Source: Nitrososphaerota archaeon
Lineage (GTDB): Archaea; Thermoproteota; Nitrososphaeria; Nitrososphaerales; Nitrosopumilaceae
Length of the DNA stretch: 33,811 nucleotides
Reading direction: 5' to 3'
NCBI GenBank assembly: GCA_028866895.1
Contig: JAGWHF010000016.1
Span: forward strand, 1 to 33,811
Shown here: positions 4,393 through 32,614 of the stretch, in pieces
Layout of the letters: each line of letters starts with the position of its first letter
How positions within the stretch are numbered: position 1 is the stretch's first letter
Position numbers and translations under genes: made by a program
Notes under the pieces: model-generated
Seen by the model: only the letters and a program-made list of their open reading frames with translations
Told to the model about the DNA's origin: nothing
Database searches by the model: none

Positions 4393-5502
4393 CTACTGTA
4401 CGAGTATCTTGCCGTACATTCCGTCCTGGGCGTGTCCCGGATACGTGCAGACGTACCAGTATGTGCCTGGCTGGGAGAGCGTGACCTGGTAGGTAAATTC
4501 GTATGCATATCCTGCATGGGCATTGTCGTTTGGAAGCACCGGCATTGTTGCTACCACCCCGCCATACATCATGCTCTGCATTGCCATGTAGGGATACGGA
4601 GGCCCGCCTGTCATGATTGCAAAGTTGTGCGACATGTCGTCATCCAAGTTAATCGATGTCACGTTCAGCGTGGTTCCTGCCTTCAAAACCAGCGTTGGGT
4701 CTATCATGTTGCCAACCACAAATACGTCGTCCTTTGCATACGGCGGTGGCGACGCACCCGTAAAGTTCTTGGCATCATCCCCCATGAAGGAGAGCGCTAC
4801 AAGATCCACGGTCTGGGATGCATATGTTATAGTATTGTTCTGTTTTGACGCCTGGGCGTAGCCTGGCAGCGCGGACGCAGCCTCTGCATCAGGAATTGAA
4901 ATCGTTCTGATACCCTGTCCATATCCAGTACCGGGCCCGTATCCGCCATTCATCATGCCCTGCCCGTATCCATACCCGCCATACCTCATGACCGGTCCTG
5001 AAGGGTAACCCGGCCGTACTGCTGATTGCGGGGTCGTCGTACCATTAAACTGGCCTTGAGATTGCCTGCCAGACTGCCCACCTGGTGTTGCAGGTCCTGC
5101 CCACTGCCTTTCAAACTGCGGGTTCTGCATCATCCACGGGCCCATGTACTGGTTTTGGAAATACGGGCTGCCCATCATGCCGTACATGAAGGTCCTGTTC
5201 TGCAACATACTGTCATACATCTGCTGCCGAAGCTGGGGATTTTGGATCATGTACCCCGTCCACTGTCCTGCATATTGCGGATTCTGTGAAAAGTACTGGT
5301 TCATGAGCCCGGGCCTCTGCATAAGGTATCCCATGTACTGTCCCGCAAACTGCGGGTTCCTTTGCATTGCCTGGTTAAAAAACTGGGGCTGTCCCATCAT
5401 CACGTACGGGCTGTAAGTGTTAACGAAGATGGCATATCCTATACCTATTCCTGCAACAAAGACTGCAGCTGAAATCCCTATCCACGCGTACCTGCTTGCC
5501 AT
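4393..5502 (-). CDS. Membrane-anchored cupredoxin with Met/Gln-rich repeats
   Basis: A 369-residue protein. Residues 6-27 form an N-terminal hydrophobic anchor. Residues 35-135 are built from repeats rich in Asn-Pro-Gln, Met, Tyr and Gln (NPQFAGQYMGYLMQRP and relatives). A Gly/Tyr/Met-rich linker covers 165-200. Residues 225-369 form a cupredoxin domain with the full type 1 copper set: H292 (SHNF), C352, H357 (CTYPGH) and M362. It should be an extracytoplasmic blue copper protein, perhaps an electron carrier in the copper-based respiration of AOA. The Met-rich repeats may bind Cu(I). The start is at 5502 because of a TATA box 28 nt upstream; in-frame ATGs further out precede that TATA box. 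Confidence 0.88.
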   Translation of the reverse strand: MASRYAWIGISAAVFVAGIGIGYAIFVNTYSPYVMMGQPQFFNQAMQRNPQFAGQYMGYLMQRPGLMNQYFSQNPQYAGQWTGYMIQNPQLRQQMYDSMLQNRTFMYGMMGSPYFQNQYMGPWMMQNPQFERQWAGPATPGGQSGRQSQGQFNGTTTPQSAVRPGYPSGPVMRYGGYGYGQGMMNGGYGPGTGYGQGIRTISIPDAEAASALPGYAQASKQNNTITYASQTVDLVALSFMGDDAKNFTGASPPPYAKDDVFVVGNMIDPTLVLKAGTTLNVTSINLDDDMSHNFAIMTGGPPYPYMAMQSMMYGGVVATMPVLPNDNAHAGYAYEFTYQVTLSQPGTYWYVCTYPGHAQDGMYGKILVQ

Positions 5503-5526
5503 CTGGGTGGTGTTTCCCTTTACACA

Positions 5527-5535
5527 CTTTAAATC
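5527..5535 (-). promoter_or_regulatory. TATA box of the cupredoxin gene
   Basis: The minus strand reads GATTTAAAG, about 28 nt before the ATG at 5502. It lies inside the longer open frame, which argues against the upstream start codons. Confidence 0.6.
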
Positions 5536-5682
5536 TCGTGCAAGAATACCATTCATGATAACAAGTCCCTTTGTCCAGGGATGATTCGGTGCATGGTCCG
5601 GTCGCATTCCCGCCGCATGCCTGCAAAACAGGTCCTGCAAAAATCAAAACCTTTAACCTCCATAAAGGAAGATACGGAACCT

Positions 5683-16459: not shown

Positions 16460-17074
16460 CTATCCCGCCACGGAAAAATGCCTGACGACGACGTGCCCCC
16501 ACTGGTCGTCTCCCACCACCGTATAGATTCCCGGACCGAGGGGTACGAACCTCTGGCCCTCATAATACCCGTTGAATGCCACATGGTATTTCATCGTGGC
16601 CTGGCGTGTCGAGTTGTGGGTCTCGATAATCCCAGTCGAGCTTGAGGGGTCAAAGACGAATCCGGAGATCCCTACGGGCTTGCACAGGTACACCCCCCTT
16701 GGATAAAGCGTGAGGCGCTGGCCGTCTGTCATGTTGTTTGCTCCATAGTTTCCCTTCATTAGCGCCATCCCAAACGGCAGGTGGAAGAGGCACGGCCCCA
16801 TGCTCCATTTCCGGAGGGGCCAGTTGTGGTCCGGGTCAAGGACCAGGGTCTTTGGGGATGTATTGGTAAGCGAGATATCCATCCCCATCTCCTGCCCAGG
16901 CCTGATATCCGTAGAGTTGAGCGAGAGATCAAGAACTAGCGCTGACTCGCTCTCATCCTCAGTGGAGGATTCCTGTTCAGTCTGTAACGAATGACCAGCA
17001 AGGAACACCAGGCCTCCTGCCGCCGCGGCTGCCACTGCGGCCCCTATGATTATAGAGAGGTGAAGAGTCTTCAT
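16460..17074 (-). CDS. Membrane-anchored extracellular beta-rich protein
   Basis: A 204-residue protein. Residues 8-28 are a hydrophobic signal/anchor, followed by a Glu/Ser-rich spacer (31-45) and a beta-rich domain (about 46-204). That domain has DLSLNSTDIRPGQEMGMDIS and GIYTVVGDDQWGHVVVRHF, an arrangement like Ig/BsuPI-type extracellular folds. Two Cys (WSMGPCLFHL and GVYLCKPVG) may form a disulfide. No enzyme motif is visible. Its ATG overlaps the TGA of the upstream PEF-CTERM gene (ATGA at 17071-17074), so it is the third gene of a translationally coupled envelope operon. Confidence 0.72.
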   Translation of the reverse strand: MKTLHLSIIIGAAVAAAAAGGLVFLAGHSLQTEQESSTEDESESALVLDLSLNSTDIRPGQEMGMDISLTNTSPKTLVLDPDHNWPLRKWSMGPCLFHLPFGMALMKGNYGANNMTDGQRLTLYPRGVYLCKPVGISGFVFDPSSSTGIIETHNSTRQATMKYHVAFNGYYEGQRFVPLGPGIYTVVGDDQWGHVVVRHFSVAG

Positions 17075-17589
17075 TCCTTCTGCCTTCCCCGCAGCATCCC
17101 TGACCTGCCACCAAGGCTACGGTACATGGCGACAATCACGGAGATTCCTGCCACAAGCACGAGGGCAGATGACGGAAACTCTGGTACCGCGGTCACCCCG
17201 GTACTTTGCGTCACCACATATCCGCTTATTCTTGCGCTTGCCGTAATTCCGATGCTGCCTGAGGGGGCAGTCGGTGGCATCTTAAATGACAACATAAAGC
17301 GACCATTCTGGTCTGCCTGCACGGTCCTAATCAAGATTAGGCTTCCCTTCGAGTCCTTGATCTGGATTGCCACAAGCTGCCCCGGCTGACCGCCGATCAC
17401 CGTACCATAGATGTTTACCTCCTCCCCGGGCGCGTAGGATCTTTTGGACGTGTTCAAGGTTATGGACTGGTCAGCCTGTGCAAGCGAGCTTGGAATGCTG
17501 CAGAGGAGCACCAAGCCAGCAAGCAGCGCCGCAAGCGCCACCGCAGGCATCCTGCCCCTAAGAGAGCCCGACAAAATACGAGAGCTCAT
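17071..17589 (-). CDS. Secreted MG2-like-domain protein with PEF-CTERM-like sorting tail
   Basis: A 172-residue protein. The signal peptide (1-39) ends at SSLAQA. One macroglobulin-like beta domain (42-125) carries SYAPGEEVNIYGTV and DQNGRFMLSFKMP. The tail reads VPEFP (135-139), then a hydrophobic stretch, then an Arg-rich end, the tripartite form of PEF-CTERM signals recognised by archaeosortases. It is probably cut and attached to the cell surface. Its beta domain resembles one in the upstream 960-residue protein. The ATG at 17589 has GGAGG 14 nt upstream and overlaps the upstream gene by 32 bp. An ATG at 17550 would lose the Arg residues of the signal peptide. Confidence 0.8.
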   Translation of the reverse strand: MSSRILSGSLRGRMPAVALAALLAGLVLLCSIPSSLAQADQSITLNTSKRSYAPGEEVNIYGTVIGGQPGQLVAIQIKDSKGSLILIRTVQADQNGRFMLSFKMPPTAPSGSIGITASARISGYVVTQSTGVTAVPEFPSSALVLVAGISVIVAMYRSLGGRSGMLRGRQKE

Positions 17590-20440
17590 GTGATTGTGAT
17601 GTTCCTCCCTTGTTTGGCCAGTCAGTTAGAATATCAGAGTAAATGCTTGCAAGGCCCGGCGTGGCCTGCTGCGGCACGTAATATGGAAGTACCACCTCCG
17701 AGTCGCCCGGGCTTAACGTATACTTGGCAGAGGACGTTCCCAAGGTATCGAGGTTGGAATCAAACAGGTTTACGGTAACAAGCGTGGGCACCTGATAGCT
17801 GGAATGGAGTGTCACGCGTACAAACCCACCCTGTCCGCGGGTGAAGAGCGATACGGGGTTGCCGTTCTGATCGGTGGGCTGGACTGACACTATGCTTATC
17901 CCGCTCGAGTTTGTGGAGTTGTTCTCAAGGTTTGCAATGCACGGGTTTGTACCGTTGACCATGGTAAGGTCACCGTTGGCGTCGAAGCATGACTGGACGT
18001 TGCTGTCGGCAAGTCCGTACTGGACATTGAGGTCCTGGTTTATCTGGACTATCTGCGCATGGTTTACCGCGGCATAGCTGTCAAAGGTCTGAACTGCCTG
18101 ATCCAGGCTTCCGCCGCTTTGAAGCACGTTCTGCATGGCGGCATTTGCTGCCTGTACCCTCTGCTGCATGAAGTTGAACTCCCCTTGGAAGACTGCCTGT
18201 GTGCGGTTGTCAGGTACGGATGAAAGAAATGACGAGAAGGCTGCCGAAGGCGTGGTGGCAAGGTTCGTCTGGGCAAGGGCCGTCAGGTCCTGCTTGAGCT
18301 GGCTTGCGGCTGCCACTCTCTGCTTCTGTATGAGCTCGTCGTTAACCTTTGCGGCAGTCTCGTTTCCGATGATATTAGCCACCCTCTGTTTTGATACCTG
18401 TATCTCTTGCATTATCTTCTGCGCCATCGGGTCGTTTTGTAGTGCGGGACCAAGCAGCGTGGTAAAGTTGGTAATGGCTGCCTGGCTGGTATTGTTTGCC
18501 TGTATGGTGGAGTTGAGCGCATTGAGGTTAAGTGATACGAGGTCTATCGATTTGTCGCCCGCATTTGGCGCTGTACCGTTCTTGTATGCGAGGGCAAGGA
18601 GCCTTGCCTGCGTGGGATCCATGAAGGTCATGCTGTCGTTTTGTACAGCCACGCCAAGCACTGCGGTCGCCTGATTGTTTGTCATGGGCGACTGGGTTCC
18701 AACCAGCGTGGTCCCGTTGAGGTTTTGCGGCCGCTGGTCGGTGCAGCTTTTTGGGGCCGAGGGCTGGTATGAGACAGGCAGTGCGGCAGGGTTCTCAAGG
18801 CTTGCGGAAAGGCAGGACTCGGTAGTAAGCGGTGTTCCCCCGGTTGCAGGCCAGTCCGAGAAGGCGTCCGTGAAAATATCAGACCTTCCCACCTGGGCAG
18901 CCGGAGGTATGAAGAAGGAGAGTGTCATCTGCGTGTCTCCTGGCTTGACTGTGGACTTGATTGAGGCTGTGCCGATGCTGCTCTGGTTGGCGTCAAAGAG
19001 GTTGACAGTGAAGAGCACCGGCATGGTTTCTCCAGAAGAGACAGAGACCTGGACGAAGTTGTTCTGGCCCTGCTTTATCATGGAGGACGGGTTTCCCTGC
19101 TGGTCTACAAGCTGGACAGAGTCTATAGAGATACCGTGTGTCTTGATGACGTTGAACTCGGTAGAGTTGGTGTAATTCTTTCCGTCTACCAGCGCGGTCG
19201 CAATGTCCTGGTACACTCCGGTCTCAAAATTGGACGGGATCTTGAACTGGAGTTCGGCAGAACCGTTGGAATCGGTCGTCACGGTCCTTGAGACAATGTC
19301 GTTGCCTGTAGGGTCTGCTACTACGAACGCGACGTTTTGTAGGCTCATTCCAGGAAGCGCCGCCTTCAATGTGACAACGTCGCCGTAGGCGTAGTACTGC
19401 TGGTCATTTGTAAGGAATAATCTGGAAGGAAGTATCGTGCCTTGGGAGTAGGTCGTTGTGGAGGAGTTGGTAGTCATCACGGGTCCGTTGACTCCCGAGA
19501 TTACGATGCTTGGTGAGACCGCCGACTGGTTGCTCTGAGAGGTCTCGCTCGAGGTGGTGCTCTCTGAGGTGACAATGGGCGAGCTTATGCCGGATCCCCC
19601 TGATGACTCGCCCTCTGATGTGGGCTGGCTCTCGCTCGTGCTTGATGACTCGGATTGGCCGGAGGACTGGTCCTCAGAGGTTGAGTTGGTGGTGGAGATT
19701 GATGAGGAGGTAGAGTTTGCCTGGTTTGAGTTTGATGTCGAGGAGGTGCCAGACCCTGCGGAGGTGCTGTTGGTCGTCCCGGATGTCCCGCTCTTAGTCG
19801 AGTTCGAGGTTGAGGCACCGGTGGTGCCTGCCATGTTGGAGGTCGAGTTTGTCCCGGATGTCGAGGTCTTGTTGGACCCTGTTGATGAGTTCAAACTTGA
19901 GCTCGTGGAGTTTGCGCCACTGTAGGAGGTAGAGTTTGATTGGGTAGTGGTTGTAGAGTTGGTGACCTTGCCTGACGTGCCAGACGATGTGGTTGTAGAG
20001 TTGGTGACCGTATTGCTTGATGTGCCAGACGATGTGGTTGTAGAGTTGGTGACCTTGCCTGACGTGCCAGACGATGTGGTTGTAGAGTTGGTGACCGTAT
20101 TGCTTGATGTGCCAGACGAGGAGCCCGTGCCTCCTTGGGCAGTGGTGTTGGTGGTCTGGCTTGAAGATCCGCCCGAGCTGGCACTGCCACCAGCCTGGGT
20201 AGAAGTCCCGTTCGAATATCCTGTAAATGTAAGCTCGGAATAGGCATGCTGCGGCACCATCAGGGCAGAGCAGACAGATACAGCCACGACAATTGCAAGC
20301 AGGATATCACGTCGCACCCTTGCGCCATTCCTGCCTGCACGTCTGTCACCCCCAATACGGCGGGCGTCTTGCTTAACCAATCTCATGCCCCCGAACTTTG
20401 CAAGGGACCCCCAGGCCCAAGACCACGCTGCCGTTTGCAT
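17558..20440 (-). CDS. Large Ser/Thr/Asn-rich surface protein with duplicated C-terminal module
   Basis: A 960-residue envelope protein. A long Arg-rich n-region and hydrophobic core (45-68) form the signal peptide. Residues 75-330 are Ser/Thr/Asn/Gly-rich with at least a dozen N-x-S/T sites, likely a glycosylated stalk. Residues 338-432 form a macroglobulin-like domain. A module of about 115 residues occurs twice (436-550 and 847-960: GISI.SVQ..DQ.GNP, VNLFD.N, FTDAFSDWP / YSDILTDWP). A helical Gln/Ala-rich region lies between them (about 610-820). There is no enzyme motif; adhesion or cell-surface structure is likely. TATA at 20461-20473 fixes the ATG at 20440. First gene of the operon. Confidence 0.82.
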   Translation of the reverse strand: MQTAAWSWAWGSLAKFGGMRLVKQDARRIGGDRRAGRNGARVRRDILLAIVVAVSVCSALMVPQHAYSELTFTGYSNGTSTQAGGSASSGGSSSQTTNTTAQGGTGSSSGTSSNTVTNSTTTSSGTSGKVTNSTTTSSGTSSNTVTNSTTTSSGTSGKVTNSTTTTQSNSTSYSGANSTSSSLNSSTGSNKTSTSGTNSTSNMAGTTGASTSNSTKSGTSGTTNSTSAGSGTSSTSNSNQANSTSSSISTTNSTSEDQSSGQSESSSTSESQPTSEGESSGGSGISSPIVTSESTTSSETSQSNQSAVSPSIVISGVNGPVMTTNSSTTTYSQGTILPSRLFLTNDQQYYAYGDVVTLKAALPGMSLQNVAFVVADPTGNDIVSRTVTTDSNGSAELQFKIPSNFETGVYQDIATALVDGKNYTNSTEFNVIKTHGISIDSVQLVDQQGNPSSMIKQGQNNFVQVSVSSGETMPVLFTVNLFDANQSSIGTASIKSTVKPGDTQMTLSFFIPPAAQVGRSDIFTDAFSDWPATGGTPLTTESCLSASLENPAALPVSYQPSAPKSCTDQRPQNLNGTTLVGTQSPMTNNQATAVLGVAVQNDSMTFMDPTQARLLALAYKNGTAPNAGDKSIDLVSLNLNALNSTIQANNTSQAAITNFTTLLGPALQNDPMAQKIMQEIQVSKQRVANIIGNETAAKVNDELIQKQRVAAASQLKQDLTALAQTNLATTPSAAFSSFLSSVPDNRTQAVFQGEFNFMQQRVQAANAAMQNVLQSGGSLDQAVQTFDSYAAVNHAQIVQINQDLNVQYGLADSNVQSCFDANGDLTMVNGTNPCIANLENNSTNSSGISIVSVQPTDQNGNPVSLFTRGQGGFVRVTLHSSYQVPTLVTVNLFDSNLDTLGTSSAKYTLSPGDSEVVLPYYVPQQATPGLASIYSDILTDWPNKGGTSQSHELSYFVGLS
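19947..20120 (-). repeat. Two copies of an 87-bp tandem repeat inside the surface-protein gene
   Basis: Alternating 42-bp and 45-bp units (19947-19988, 19989-20033, 20034-20075, 20076-20120). All begin GTGGTTGTAGAG on the plus strand. They encode VTNSTTTSSGTS followed by GK or SNT. The 87-bp pairs are almost identical (one visible base difference at the end), pointing to recent duplication or slippage. Confidence 0.9.
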
Positions 20441-20572: not shown

Positions 20573-22156
20573 TCAGCCAGCCTTCAATGCGTTATAGAGT
20601 TTTTGGCCGTCCGCCCTTCCCAGCCCCGAGCAGGCATCCCAGCCAGATCCAGCCTTGTAGGCACCGTTGTTTCCCGTCGTAATATCCACAAATACGGAGT
20701 TTGGAACCTTTGTGTAAAGGATTGGGTTGAGATACCCTACAGGCTTTCCTATTCCCTGGTTCAAGAGTGCGACAAGGCCAGCATAAAGCGGAGCGACCGC
20801 GCTTGTACCCCCTATGACCGTGCTCGTTCCGTCTACAAGAACGTCGTATCCCGTCACGGGATCGGCATCCCCCGATACATCCGGAAGTCCCCTTCCTACC
20901 CTGCCTCCAGGGTTTGCCGACGGCGGCACCTTTGCTCCCTTTTGCCACGGAGGTAGATCGAATGCGTCGCTAATGCCTCCCCCAGTAGCTCCCATGAACG
21001 GCAGCTCGTTCCAGACCACCTCGCCTGTGACCTTGCCGTCATCAGAGTTTATGCGGGTGCCGCCGCATGCCAGGACATAGGGGCTTGATGCCGGAAAGTC
21101 TACATGGGCAAGCCCGTCACTTACGCCGTCGGAGGATCCGTCATCACCTGCGGCTACAGATACTGTTACTCCAAGCGCCGAGGCATTCTTGAACGCTTGG
21201 TTGAATGCGTCAAGTGACTGTGATGTCCAGTTGGACTCGGTCCCTCCCCAGCTTATCGAGATTACTGACGGCTTGTTCTTGGCGTCGTGTACTGCGGCGT
21301 CTATCGCGTCAAGAAACCCAATGTCCGTATTGGGCCCAAAGTATACCATGATTTTGGACTTGGGCGCTATTGCACCTGCGACCTCGATGTCAAGCATCAC
21401 CTCGCCGTCCGGGCCGTTTGCACTTCCGGTCGGGCTGTTTGTCGCCCCGTCCACGGAGACTGCCTCCACGTCGGGCATCGCCAGCCCGAGCTTTGAAAAG
21501 TATGCCTGAAGGTCCGACATCTTGAATCCGCCCCCGAGCTCTATAATCCCTATCGTTTGTCCGGTTCCGTCAAGCCCCTTTGGATAATCATACATGCTGG
21601 CAAGGCTTGTGGGCAGGTATGTTGCCTGCGGGCTGGCTGCCTTTTTGTTCTTCTCAAAAATCCTAAAGTGCGGCTTGGCTTGGGGGCGGTTGTCTAGCCC
21701 GAACACCCCCCTGACTATCTGCGAGATTTCATCCGGTACGTGGATCCTCCCCGTCCTTCCCCGGTAGGTCCCGGCCGGATGCTTGTACAATGCAAGCTTT
21801 ACGTCAAACGCCCTTGAAAAATCGGCGACAGTTCCGGAGAGGACCACCTTGCACTGGGTCCTGTCCACCCTTGCCACGTCAAGGTTGTTGGACGTGGCAA
21901 ACGATTCTATCCTTTTGATGTCTTCCTCTGAGGCGGCAAACCTCTTTTGGAACTCTTCACGCGTCATATGCTGGCGATCCTTTGGCAGGGCTGCAAGGTT
22001 CTGCTCAACCCTCCTGCCTACCTCGTCCGCGTTCGGGCGCCTTATCAGGACGGTCACCTGGATTTTCTCCCTTGGATCGGGCGATCCGGTAGGGGTGGAG
22101 CCTCCAAGCAGCGATCTGTCGCTTCCTGTTACTGGAATCTTTCTTGATTGTGCCAT
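20573..22156 (-). CDS. Sedolisin (S53) serine-carboxyl protease, kumamolisin-like
   Basis: A 527-residue protease precursor. Residues about 30-165 are the pro-kumamolisin prodomain (VTVLIRRP, SGTVADFSRAFDV). The mature part starts near 175 (AASPQATYLPTSLASMYDYP). Catalytic residues E252, D256, D338 and S452 (GGTSAVAP) are spaced exactly as E78, D82, D164 and S278 of kumamolisin. A Ca2+ site is expected at the C-terminus (FVDITTGNNG, GWDACSGLG). There is no classical signal peptide, which is also true of kumamolisin. These enzymes usually work in acid; the physiological role in an AOA is unclear. A TATA-like CTTAAATCC lies at about 22187-22195. Confidence 0.95.
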   Translation of the reverse strand: MAQSRKIPVTGSDRSLLGGSTPTGSPDPREKIQVTVLIRRPNADEVGRRVEQNLAALPKDRQHMTREEFQKRFAASEEDIKRIESFATSNNLDVARVDRTQCKVVLSGTVADFSRAFDVKLALYKHPAGTYRGRTGRIHVPDEISQIVRGVFGLDNRPQAKPHFRIFEKNKKAASPQATYLPTSLASMYDYPKGLDGTGQTIGIIELGGGFKMSDLQAYFSKLGLAMPDVEAVSVDGATNSPTGSANGPDGEVMLDIEVAGAIAPKSKIMVYFGPNTDIGFLDAIDAAVHDAKNKPSVISISWGGTESNWTSQSLDAFNQAFKNASALGVTVSVAAGDDGSSDGVSDGLAHVDFPASSPYVLACGGTRINSDDGKVTGEVVWNELPFMGATGGGISDAFDLPPWQKGAKVPPSANPGGRVGRGLPDVSGDADPVTGYDVLVDGTSTVIGGTSAVAPLYAGLVALLNQGIGKPVGYLNPILYTKVPNSVFVDITTGNNGAYKAGSGWDACSGLGRADGQKLYNALKAG

Positions 22157-31240: not shown

Positions 31241-32614
31241 CTAGATTTTCTTGAATATGCTCTCTATCATGGAGAATATCTTGTCAAAGATTGATTCGGG
31301 TGCGGTTACCACCTGATGTACGGTTGCACTTGTGGAGGGCGCGGCCGTGGGTGCTGCATGGCTTTGGGCGGACGGCTGGGTGGCGGAGGGGGCGGGCGGC
31401 TGCTGGGATTGCTGGGTCGGGGTGCTTGGGGTGCCGGGAGTTGATTGGGGAGTTGTGGGCGGCTGCTGGGATTGCTGGGTCGGGGTGCTTGGGGATGCAG
31501 GGGGTGCGGTTGCAGGCAAGGACAGCAGGGCGGTGCCTGAGCTGCCCGAATGGCCCGGGCCCCCGGCATAGGTTGCGGTGATTGTAATCTTGCCTGCAGA
31601 CGGGGGCGAGGTATAGGTTATCGCGCAGTGGTTGCCTACAAGCAGGCAGAAGTTGGGGGTGAAGGTACCTCCCGCACCTCCGTCGCTCCATGATATCATG
31701 CCGTTGATGGAATTGGAGGGGTTTGTGGCGTCGGTGACTGAGGCCGTGACTGTGGCCTGGCTTCCGGAAGAGATTGCGGCCGGGTTTGCAGTAACTGAAG
31801 TTACGGTTGTGTCAGGGGTTCCGCTGGTGCTTGCCGTGCCGGTTCCGTTTGACATGCTTGTGGAGATGCTTGATAGCGCGTAGCTTGCAGAATGCGTGCT
31901 GTCGCCGGAATATGTGGCGTTAACTGTGATTACATTGAGCGGGTTTGCAGGCGAGGTATAGGTTGCCACGCACGGCTGCGTTGGCAGGGTGCAGGAGGCC
32001 GGGTTGAAGGTGCCGCCATTGTGGCCGTCGCTAAATGTGATGGTGCCGGAGGGTGCGGTAGGGGTGCTTGAGGTGTCGGCAACCTGTACTGAGAAGGTCA
32101 GGGTATCGTTGGAGGGAAGGGCGGCGGAGGACGGGCTGATTGTAGTGCTGGTCGGATCAAGCCGGTTTACTGTCAGGGTAGAGGTGCCCGCGCTGCTGCC
32201 ATGGGCAGGGTCGCCGCCATAGGTTGCGGTGATTATGACTGAGCTTGGAGGATTGGAGGATACCGCATATGATACGGCGCATGTGGCAGATGAGAGGCTG
32301 CAGGATGCTGGATTGAAGGTGCCGCCGGCGCCGCTATCGCTGAACTGTACGGTTCCGGTGGGGGTTGTGGGCGTGGCAGACGTGTCGGTGACCGTTATGG
32401 TAAGAGTGCCGGAGGCTCCCGGGTTTACGGTAAGGGAGTTTGGCGAGACTGCAAGCGATGTTGGGTCCTGCGTGCCTGATACCGACGTGCTGTTGCTGTC
32501 GGTGAATATCAGGCTGCCGTCGGCCGCTGCAGCGGGTGCGGCAAGAATGCCAAAAATAGGCAGCAGGACGAAGGCTCCCAGGATTATGAGTTTTGAGGGA
32601 AATAGCGATGTCAT
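31241..32614 (-). CDS. Secreted protein with three Ig-like domains, Pro/Gln linker and amphipathic tail
   Basis: A 457-residue protein. The signal peptide (1-31) ends at APAAAA. Three bacterial Ig-like domains of about 100 residues (51-150, 153-250, 268-367) follow, each ending in TATYGGD-, NATYSGD- or TATYAGG-like strands. Each has a CX6C pair (105/112, 208/215, 323/330). A Pro/Gln/Ser/Thr linker (370-430) contains a duplicated 21-residue unit. The last 17 residues (SIFDKIFSMIESIFKKI) form a strongly amphipathic helix. It is likely an envelope or adhesin-like protein. It begins six bases after the upstream WWSxG gene, without a Shine-Dalgarno motif, so they form an operon. Confidence 0.8.
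   Translation of the reverse strand: MTSLFPSKLIILGAFVLLPIFGILAAPAAAADGSLIFTDSNSTSVSGTQDPTSLAVSPNSLTVNPGASGTLTITVTDTSATPTTPTGTVQFSDSGAGGTFNPASCSLSSATCAVSYAVSSNPPSSVIITATYGGDPAHGSSAGTSTLTVNRLDPTSTTISPSSAALPSNDTLTFSVQVADTSSTPTAPSGTITFSDGHNGGTFNPASCTLPTQPCVATYTSPANPLNVITVNATYSGDSTHSASYALSSISTSMSNGTGTASTSGTPDTTVTSVTANPAAISSGSQATVTASVTDATNPSNSINGMISWSDGGAGGTFTPNFCLLVGNHCAITYTSPPSAGKITITATYAGGPGHSGSSGTALLSLPATAPPASPSTPTQQSQQPPTTPQSTPGTPSTPTQQSQQPPAPSATQPSAQSHAAPTAAPSTSATVHQVVTAPESIFDKIFSMIESIFKKI
31394..31494 (-). repeat. 38-bp direct repeat (31394-31431 and 31457-31494)
   Basis: Two identical 38-bp copies, 63 bp apart start to start (21 codons), beginning GGGCGGCTGCTGGGATTGCT on the plus strand. 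They encode the repeated PSTPTQQSQQPP unit of the Ig-domain protein's linker. Confidence 0.9.

Follow-up and report, generated by a model that had tools for sequence, protein, structure and literature searches.

The stretch analysed here, called the window below, is an entire contig of 33,811 nucleotides (JAGWHF010000016.1, our contig C7) from the 2.26-Mb genome of a Nitrososphaerota archaeon. On its minus strand, three open reading frames (ORFs) follow one another closely. The first, which we call LARGE (17558..20440), encodes an exported surface protein of 960 residues without a C-terminal anchor. The second, SMALL (17071..17589), encodes a partner of 172 residues with one macroglobulin-like MG2 domain and a membrane tail, and the third gene (16460..17074) encodes 204 residues, with a hydrophobic N-terminal segment followed by a domain ending in GD-x-WGH. 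A hydropathy scan found an N-terminal hydrophobic segment in LARGE and SMALL as well. LARGE and SMALL overlap by 32 bp, SMALL and the third gene by 4 bp; these reading frames, coordinates and overlaps had been given in an initial annotation made from the letters of the DNA and were recovered as written, while the interpretation attached to them is supported only in part. Relatives of LARGE were found in Nitrosotalea devanaterra (LN890280.1), N. bavarica and further assemblies labelled Nitrosotalea or "Thaumarchaeota", and because the named relatives are Nitrosotalea assemblies, we place the source genome in the Nitrosotalea clade, among the ammonia-oxidising archaea of acid soils. Our main conclusion, to which we give a probability of roughly 60%, is that ammonia-oxidising archaea possess a two-gene module for surface display, of which LARGE and SMALL form one version and in which an exchangeable cargo is docked through an MG2-beta unit onto an MG2 anchor.

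LARGE is composed, in order, of a Ser/Thr/Asn-rich tract, an MG2 domain, a first beta domain (bdA), a helical domain and a second beta domain (bdB). Its probable signal is the hydrophobic segment at residues 45-63 (20252..20308, on the minus strand like all features of the three genes), which precedes the Ser/Thr/Asn-rich tract (about residues 69-330; 19451..20236). Two identical 87-bp tandem units lie within this tract (19947..20119). Residues 75-330 have fractions of 0.34 Ser, 0.24 Thr and 0.09 Asn and hold 17 of the 34 N-glycosylation sequons counted over the whole protein; the tract would probably be glycosylated. The MG2 domain (residues 338-432; 19145..19429) and bdA (about residues 433-548; 18797..19144) together form the MG2-beta unit that is common to the LARGE paralogues. 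The helical domain (about residues 650-830; 17951..18493) has a low-confidence model and no Pfam family. Its relatives are stand-alone exported proteins of about 228 residues, up to several per genome (L258, L259, L260, L261), and no Pfam family was recognised in them. The last domain, bdB (residues 845-960; 17561..17908), is an intragenic duplicate of bdA: the two share 46% identity over 106 residues and form sister branches on the tree (support 96/89), separate from the beta domains that other LARGE proteins carry. Structure comparison brought bdB close to the beta sandwiches of GH2 (Z 12.7, root-mean-square deviation (rmsd) 1.6, 98 residues) and to Wzt C-terminal domains (Z about 11, rmsd 2.3-3.4). 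A sugar-binding role suggested by the resemblance of bdA to Wzt_C was dropped, since this family is matched by 2 of 18 members only, and RbmA, the top Foldseek entry, was read as a match of tandem beta sandwiches only. In the AlphaFold2 model of LARGE, confidence is about 70-90 in MG2, bdA and bdB, below 50 through much of the middle and 63 overall.

SMALL has a simpler layout: a signal peptide, an MG2 domain (residues 40-128; 17206..17472) and a sorting-type tail (residues 135-172; 17074..17187) in which the VPEF motif, a transmembrane (TM) helix at residues 138-156 and a basic end are all present. VPEF is invariant in the 26 aligned SMALL orthologues; most relatives in the genus read VPEFG, and the window's own subclade reads VPEFP or VPEFT. 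A scan for tail segments, whose rows include one gene counted at two loci and two near-identical loci, found a hydrophobic segment beyond residue 50 in 24 of 26 SMALL rows and none beyond residue 100 in 24 of 26 LARGE rows. The restriction of the VPEFP tail to SMALL, already pointed out in the initial annotation, is real. Across the pairs in general, the tail of SMALL is mostly kept, either of the PEF type or as a CFI-box plus TM helix, and LARGE mostly has none. CFI-box-CTERM was above cut-off in all three of the scanned non-PEF partners, a kind of partner whose C-terminus likewise holds a hydrophobic segment.

This tail had led to the proposal that SMALL is a likely archaeosortase substrate. 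The enzyme is present: one thaumarchaeosortase was found in the genome (L001:1078-2052, corresponding to G000:C22:132737-133711), scoring 470 bits on TIGR04297 for a cut-off of 250, and an archaeosortase-family protein occurs in 141 of 151 genomes of the family, including 96 of the 96 high-quality ones. In its VPEF-TM-basic architecture and in the presence of the enzyme, the locus resembles the PEFG-CTERM/thaumarchaeosortase system. It differs from that system in two other respects: the window tail scores 13.1 bits on the PEFG-CTERM model TIGR04296, below its cut-off of 25, and the sortase has Ser for Cys, so that covalent sorting of SMALL is at most putative. The same model matches 13 of the 26 SMALL orthologues at E<=0.1 and is passed, with 29.2 bits, by the SMALL paralogue on contig C33 of the same genome. 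Ser occupies the usual catalytic Cys position in all 31 aligned thaumarchaeosortases (30 loci out of the 141 matching genomes, and the window genome's own), with Arg and His kept and no Cys column; the window genome's enzyme contains no Cys at all. Of 22 further archaeosortase-type proteins from the phylum whose motif could be aligned, 21 have Cys and the exception (L278) has Ser; three more rows were misaligned or gapped. The term "thaumarchaeosortase" itself was not found in the literature searched.

Both partners match Pfam MG2, each below the curated cut-off (E=1.7e-5 and 1.1e-3), and the family is matched at E<=0.01 by all aligned members of either type (18/18 LARGE-type, 26/26 SMALL-type). 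Within its own genome SMALL retrieves the MG2 domain of LARGE (32% identity, E=1.3e-6), and profile-profile comparison of the two domains with hhalign gives 98%, E=1.6e-13 and 33% identity over 89 columns. What had been described as a resemblance between two macroglobulin-like domains is thus homology. To place these domains in history, a tree of 80 rows and 99 columns was used. SMALL domains group together and LARGE domains group together, requiring 3 and 2 changes, respectively, against shuffled means above 22, and the other MG2 domains of these genomes fall mostly outside (21 such rows, hand-picked, 4 of which lie inside or edge the SMALL or LARGE groups). Because the two groups separate, recent copying of MG2 between LARGE and SMALL is rejected, and the pair duplicated and spread as a unit. 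Judged from the tree, the split into SMALL and LARGE types predates the multiplication of pairs, which is ancient copying. The idea of an operon built by domain copying therefore survives for an old MG2 event and not for recent exchange between the genes; the clear later copying seen in these sequences lies within LARGE, in the duplication that gave bdA and bdB. The distance matrices of the two partners also agree (r=0.79 for 26 pairs, and r=0.68 for 14 pairs when only Nitrosotalea is taken), with 0 of 5000 permutations as high in either case.

The overlap of LARGE and SMALL (17558..17589) is formed by a conserved ATG inside the LARGE end, of the form (H/N)E.SYFVG; its length of 32 bp depends on the start chosen, a second in-frame ATG being located 13 codons downstream. 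Among 28 LARGE ends examined, 26 have T as the third base of the last His/Asn codon (AAT 15, CAT 11, CAC 2), compared with a T-ending share of only 21-74% among such codons in the 22 genes tested; in 22 of the 28, the frame that begins at the upstream ATG is 150 codons or longer. This T persists although the residue alternates between His and Asn, which supports selection on the SMALL start codon within the LARGE end. The chance of 10^-6.3 calculated for the wobble position is too strong, because it counts 22 related sequences as if they were independent. In G067, in G154 and in the second G085 copy, the ATG has disappeared or changed, or its frame has, so the exact overlap is not obligatory. 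Paralogous SMALL genes start mostly at -4 (an ATGA-type overlap) or at +1 relative to the LARGE stop, as compared with -32 for the window type, and arrangements of this sort may couple translation of the two genes.

The conservation of the pair was judged on 59 distinct genes in which the beta domain is complete and a stop codon is present, taken from loci fetched after profile searches and not by random draw. Fifty of them have a same-strand MG2 ORF within 150 nt downstream; the proportion is 28/29 for window-type genes, 22/30 for the other type, and 46/52 where the beta domain ends the protein. A gene was counted as unpaired only if the sequence continued for 250 nt or more beyond it, and genes cut by contig ends were dropped when no partner was seen, which introduces a slight bias towards pairs; near-identical genes were merged only where the last 90 residues are identical. 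The paired genes span six genera and two families: Nitrosotalea, four further genera of the same family (G024; G027; G092, G134, G280, G296, G294, G398 and others; G102), and one genome of another family that has the full pair (G205). Of the 37 genomes of the genus, 27 have a window-type LARGE or its C-terminal end (fragmentary in some assemblies) next to SMALL; the locus runs into a contig end in three (G142, G164, G165), and a window-type LARGE was not seen in 7 (G044, G073, G108, G153, G157, G158, G161). On the N. devanaterra chromosome, genes of the module lie at about 1.091-1.095 Mb and 1.654-1.658 Mb. More broadly, the MG2-beta profile (A4) matches in 32 of 151 family genomes and 7 of 22 genera, in 54 of 400 class genomes, where the weaker matches are MG2 alone, and in 12 of 398 phylum genomes at E<=1e-20. 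The pair is thus a conserved, closely coupled surface unit, with one membrane-tailed partner and one unanchored partner rich in Ser, Thr and Asn, and in this respect the initial interpretation is supported.

The third gene does not belong to this unit. It adjoins the pair in 11 of the 37 genus genomes only, so that the three-gene operon proposed at first is rejected: the unit is a two-gene module of LARGE and SMALL, and the third gene is a lineage-specific extra. Its domain recurs in many other exported Nitrosotalea proteins. In N. devanaterra it makes up, by itself, two closely similar frames of 219 residues, and elsewhere it sits inside open frames of 265-947 residues (L262, L074, L082; G008); the structure model of the window protein is unusable, with a predicted local distance difference test score of 39.8. 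The loose association of the third gene, and of the upstream protease gene considered below, bears on a reading in which LARGE, adhesin-like, and SMALL, a small MG2 protein, are independent surface proteins that share joint expression without contact. Such a reading could draw on the tandem MG2 proteins that also exist in these genomes, such as the four MG2 ORFs on C33 (L207), but it has to face a pairing kept in 50 of 59 genes across changing cargo and anchor type, when neither the third gene nor the protease stays with the pair. We find it quite improbable.

Paralogous pairs show how the cargo varies. The same genome carries one on C33 (L147; G000:C33:73500-79500), made of a 743-residue LARGE and a 150-residue SMALL with a VPEFG tail, the two genes overlapping by 4 bp (ATGA). 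This LARGE combines the MG2-beta unit with three plastocyanin-type copper domains, each with a C-x2-H-x2-M motif. When 20 LARGE proteins of the 30 other-type genes were scanned, a plastocyanin-type domain (PF00127) was above cut-off in 11; the copper motif C-x2-H-x(2-4)-M was found in 14 of 25 sequences, and other cargo consists of Big_3_5, HYR, TSP_3 or NosD repeats. The window LARGE has neither the motif nor a plastocyanin-type domain, and its locus is better described as a mucin-like, copper-free version of the cargo/anchor module. The plastocyanin-like blue-copper proteins of ammonia-oxidising archaea are thus related to the cargo of these paralogues, with the difference that the module fuses them to MG2-beta beside an anchor gene.

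Adjacent genes for a large unanchored and a small anchored protein recall the slaA/slaB genes of Sulfolobales, which are bicistronic and encode a large soluble glycoprotein and a small beta-sandwich protein with a C-terminal membrane anchor (PMC5744192). By the same logic, LARGE could be the lattice protein and SMALL the membrane stalk of an accessory S-layer pair. The SlaB model NF040788 is indeed matched by 13 of 26 SMALL orthologues at E<=0.1 (best 5.7e-10), the matches covering only the signal peptide and the first beta domain in those viewed singly. However, orthologues scored singly reach 23-32 bits for a cut-off of 700, and the window SMALL, with its 172 residues and single MG2 domain, does not match the model. 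Moreover, LARGE sequences diverge strongly between copies, with cargo that varies and is often a copper protein. From their numbering, NDEV_0159 and NDEV_0294 of N. devanaterra presumably lie away from the pair. It is these two that are named as S-layer genes of that species (PMC4836417), and a separate SlaB homologue is reported for most Nitrososphaerota (PMC11153153). Taken together, we regard an S-layer pair as unlikely.

The homology of MG2 to macroglobulins and a pro-kumamolisin/S8 protease gene immediately upstream of LARGE on the same strand (20573-22156) suggest yet another scenario, an alpha-2-macroglobulin-like defence or inhibitor unit working with this protease. The MG2 domain of alpha-2-macroglobulin (2p9r) is matched with E=2.1e-4, and the MG2-beta unit resembles the MG2-MG3 tandem of alpha-2-macroglobulin and complement C3-C5. 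Unlike in these proteins, the MG2 domains are located on two separate chains, and in the three proteins of the window neither a thioester-domain Pfam family (at E<=1) nor another macroglobulin family gave a match. In addition, a close match to the kumamolisin-type protease adjoins the pair in just 2 of 25 named loci (L124, L125), with a weak 28% match in L128. Involvement of the upstream protease is unsupported, and we consider the scenario highly improbable.

In the display module that we favour, SMALL would be exported and held by its C-terminal tail in the membrane, with its one MG2 domain facing outward. LARGE would be exported in soluble form and would dock on SMALL with its MG2-beta unit, via MG2/beta-sandwich contacts, and the remainder of LARGE would be the cargo, differing with each copy of the module: a glycan-rich tract and a helical domain here, three plastocyanin-type domains at the sister locus of the same genome. 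Overlapping or abutting genes would produce the anchor together with its cargo. The sequences themselves show that the pair is conserved and inherited as a unit, that the genes overlap, that the MG2 domains are homologous, that the tails are asymmetric and that the cargo varies; we infer the docking and its stoichiometry, as well as translational coupling, glycosylation and sortase processing. A more specific form of the same idea, which we offer as a tentative possibility, would have SMALL as an MG2 receptor and MG2-beta of LARGE as the plug, making a macroglobulin-like array over two chains; triple plastocyanins, adhesin repeats and mucin-like tracts would be its cargo and, in Nitrosotalea, the receptor would be fixed by the serine archaeosortase.

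Several observations weigh against the display module. The partner is missing in 9 of the 59 genes: three with Big_3_5 cargo (G108, G138, G091), those of G085, G142 and G116, two frame-broken fragments and one other. Three of the genomes without a window-type LARGE are near-complete (G044, G073, G108), and two SMALL rows (L153 and L199) have no tail segment. In the LARGE proteins of G134 and G280 (L206, L217), which have thrombospondin type 3 repeats upstream, a cupredoxin comes after MG2-beta, and the supposed dock is therefore not always terminal. The agreement of the partner distances would follow from co-inheritance by itself. As for the structural side, the model of LARGE is a single chain predicted with moderate confidence. 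Its MG2-bdA part superposes on what we take to be the MG2-MG3 part of complement C3/C5 and alpha-2-macroglobulins with Z of about 11-13 and an rmsd of about 14-16 A over the tandem, so that only the single domains superpose.

Little is known of how ammonia-oxidising archaea retain proteins outside their membrane; small copper proteins are believed to serve in their electron transfer. In the receptor-and-plug form of the module, copper cargo would place carriers of electrons or copper on the outer face, near ammonia oxidation. The cargo-plus-anchor pair would make it possible to predict, in a testable way, which proteins are tethered at the surface, what tethers them and what they sit next to, and would supply candidate substrates for a sortase family with a replaced catalytic cysteine. 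We found no description of the LARGE/SMALL pair in the accessible portions of the literature on archaeosortases, S-layers, macroglobulin domains and plastocyanins of ammonia-oxidising archaea. In this literature, one paper mentions a protein with A2M repeats that occurs only in a sponge symbiont (PMC6697440), another reports that biofilms of ammonia-oxidising archaea show induction of large adhesion proteins (PMC12448741), and a third speaks of plastocyanin-like electron carriers in these organisms (PMC11561398).

Some further observations concern related domains at other places. A separate MG2 cluster, with four MG2-type ORFs in a row, exists at L207 (G000:C33:130500-138500) and, in G044, at L031; four above-cut-off PEFG-CTERM matches fall on the L207 stretch in the window's genome. 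Within the window, positions 31241-32614 encode a protein with three Big_3_5 Ig-like domains, the same type of cargo as in unpaired LARGE paralogues. A match of this region to the one beside LARGE, obtained with the low-complexity filter off, was taken as composition and not kinship. Finally, positions 4393-5640 encode a protein of 415 residues with a plastocyanin-type domain at its C-terminus.

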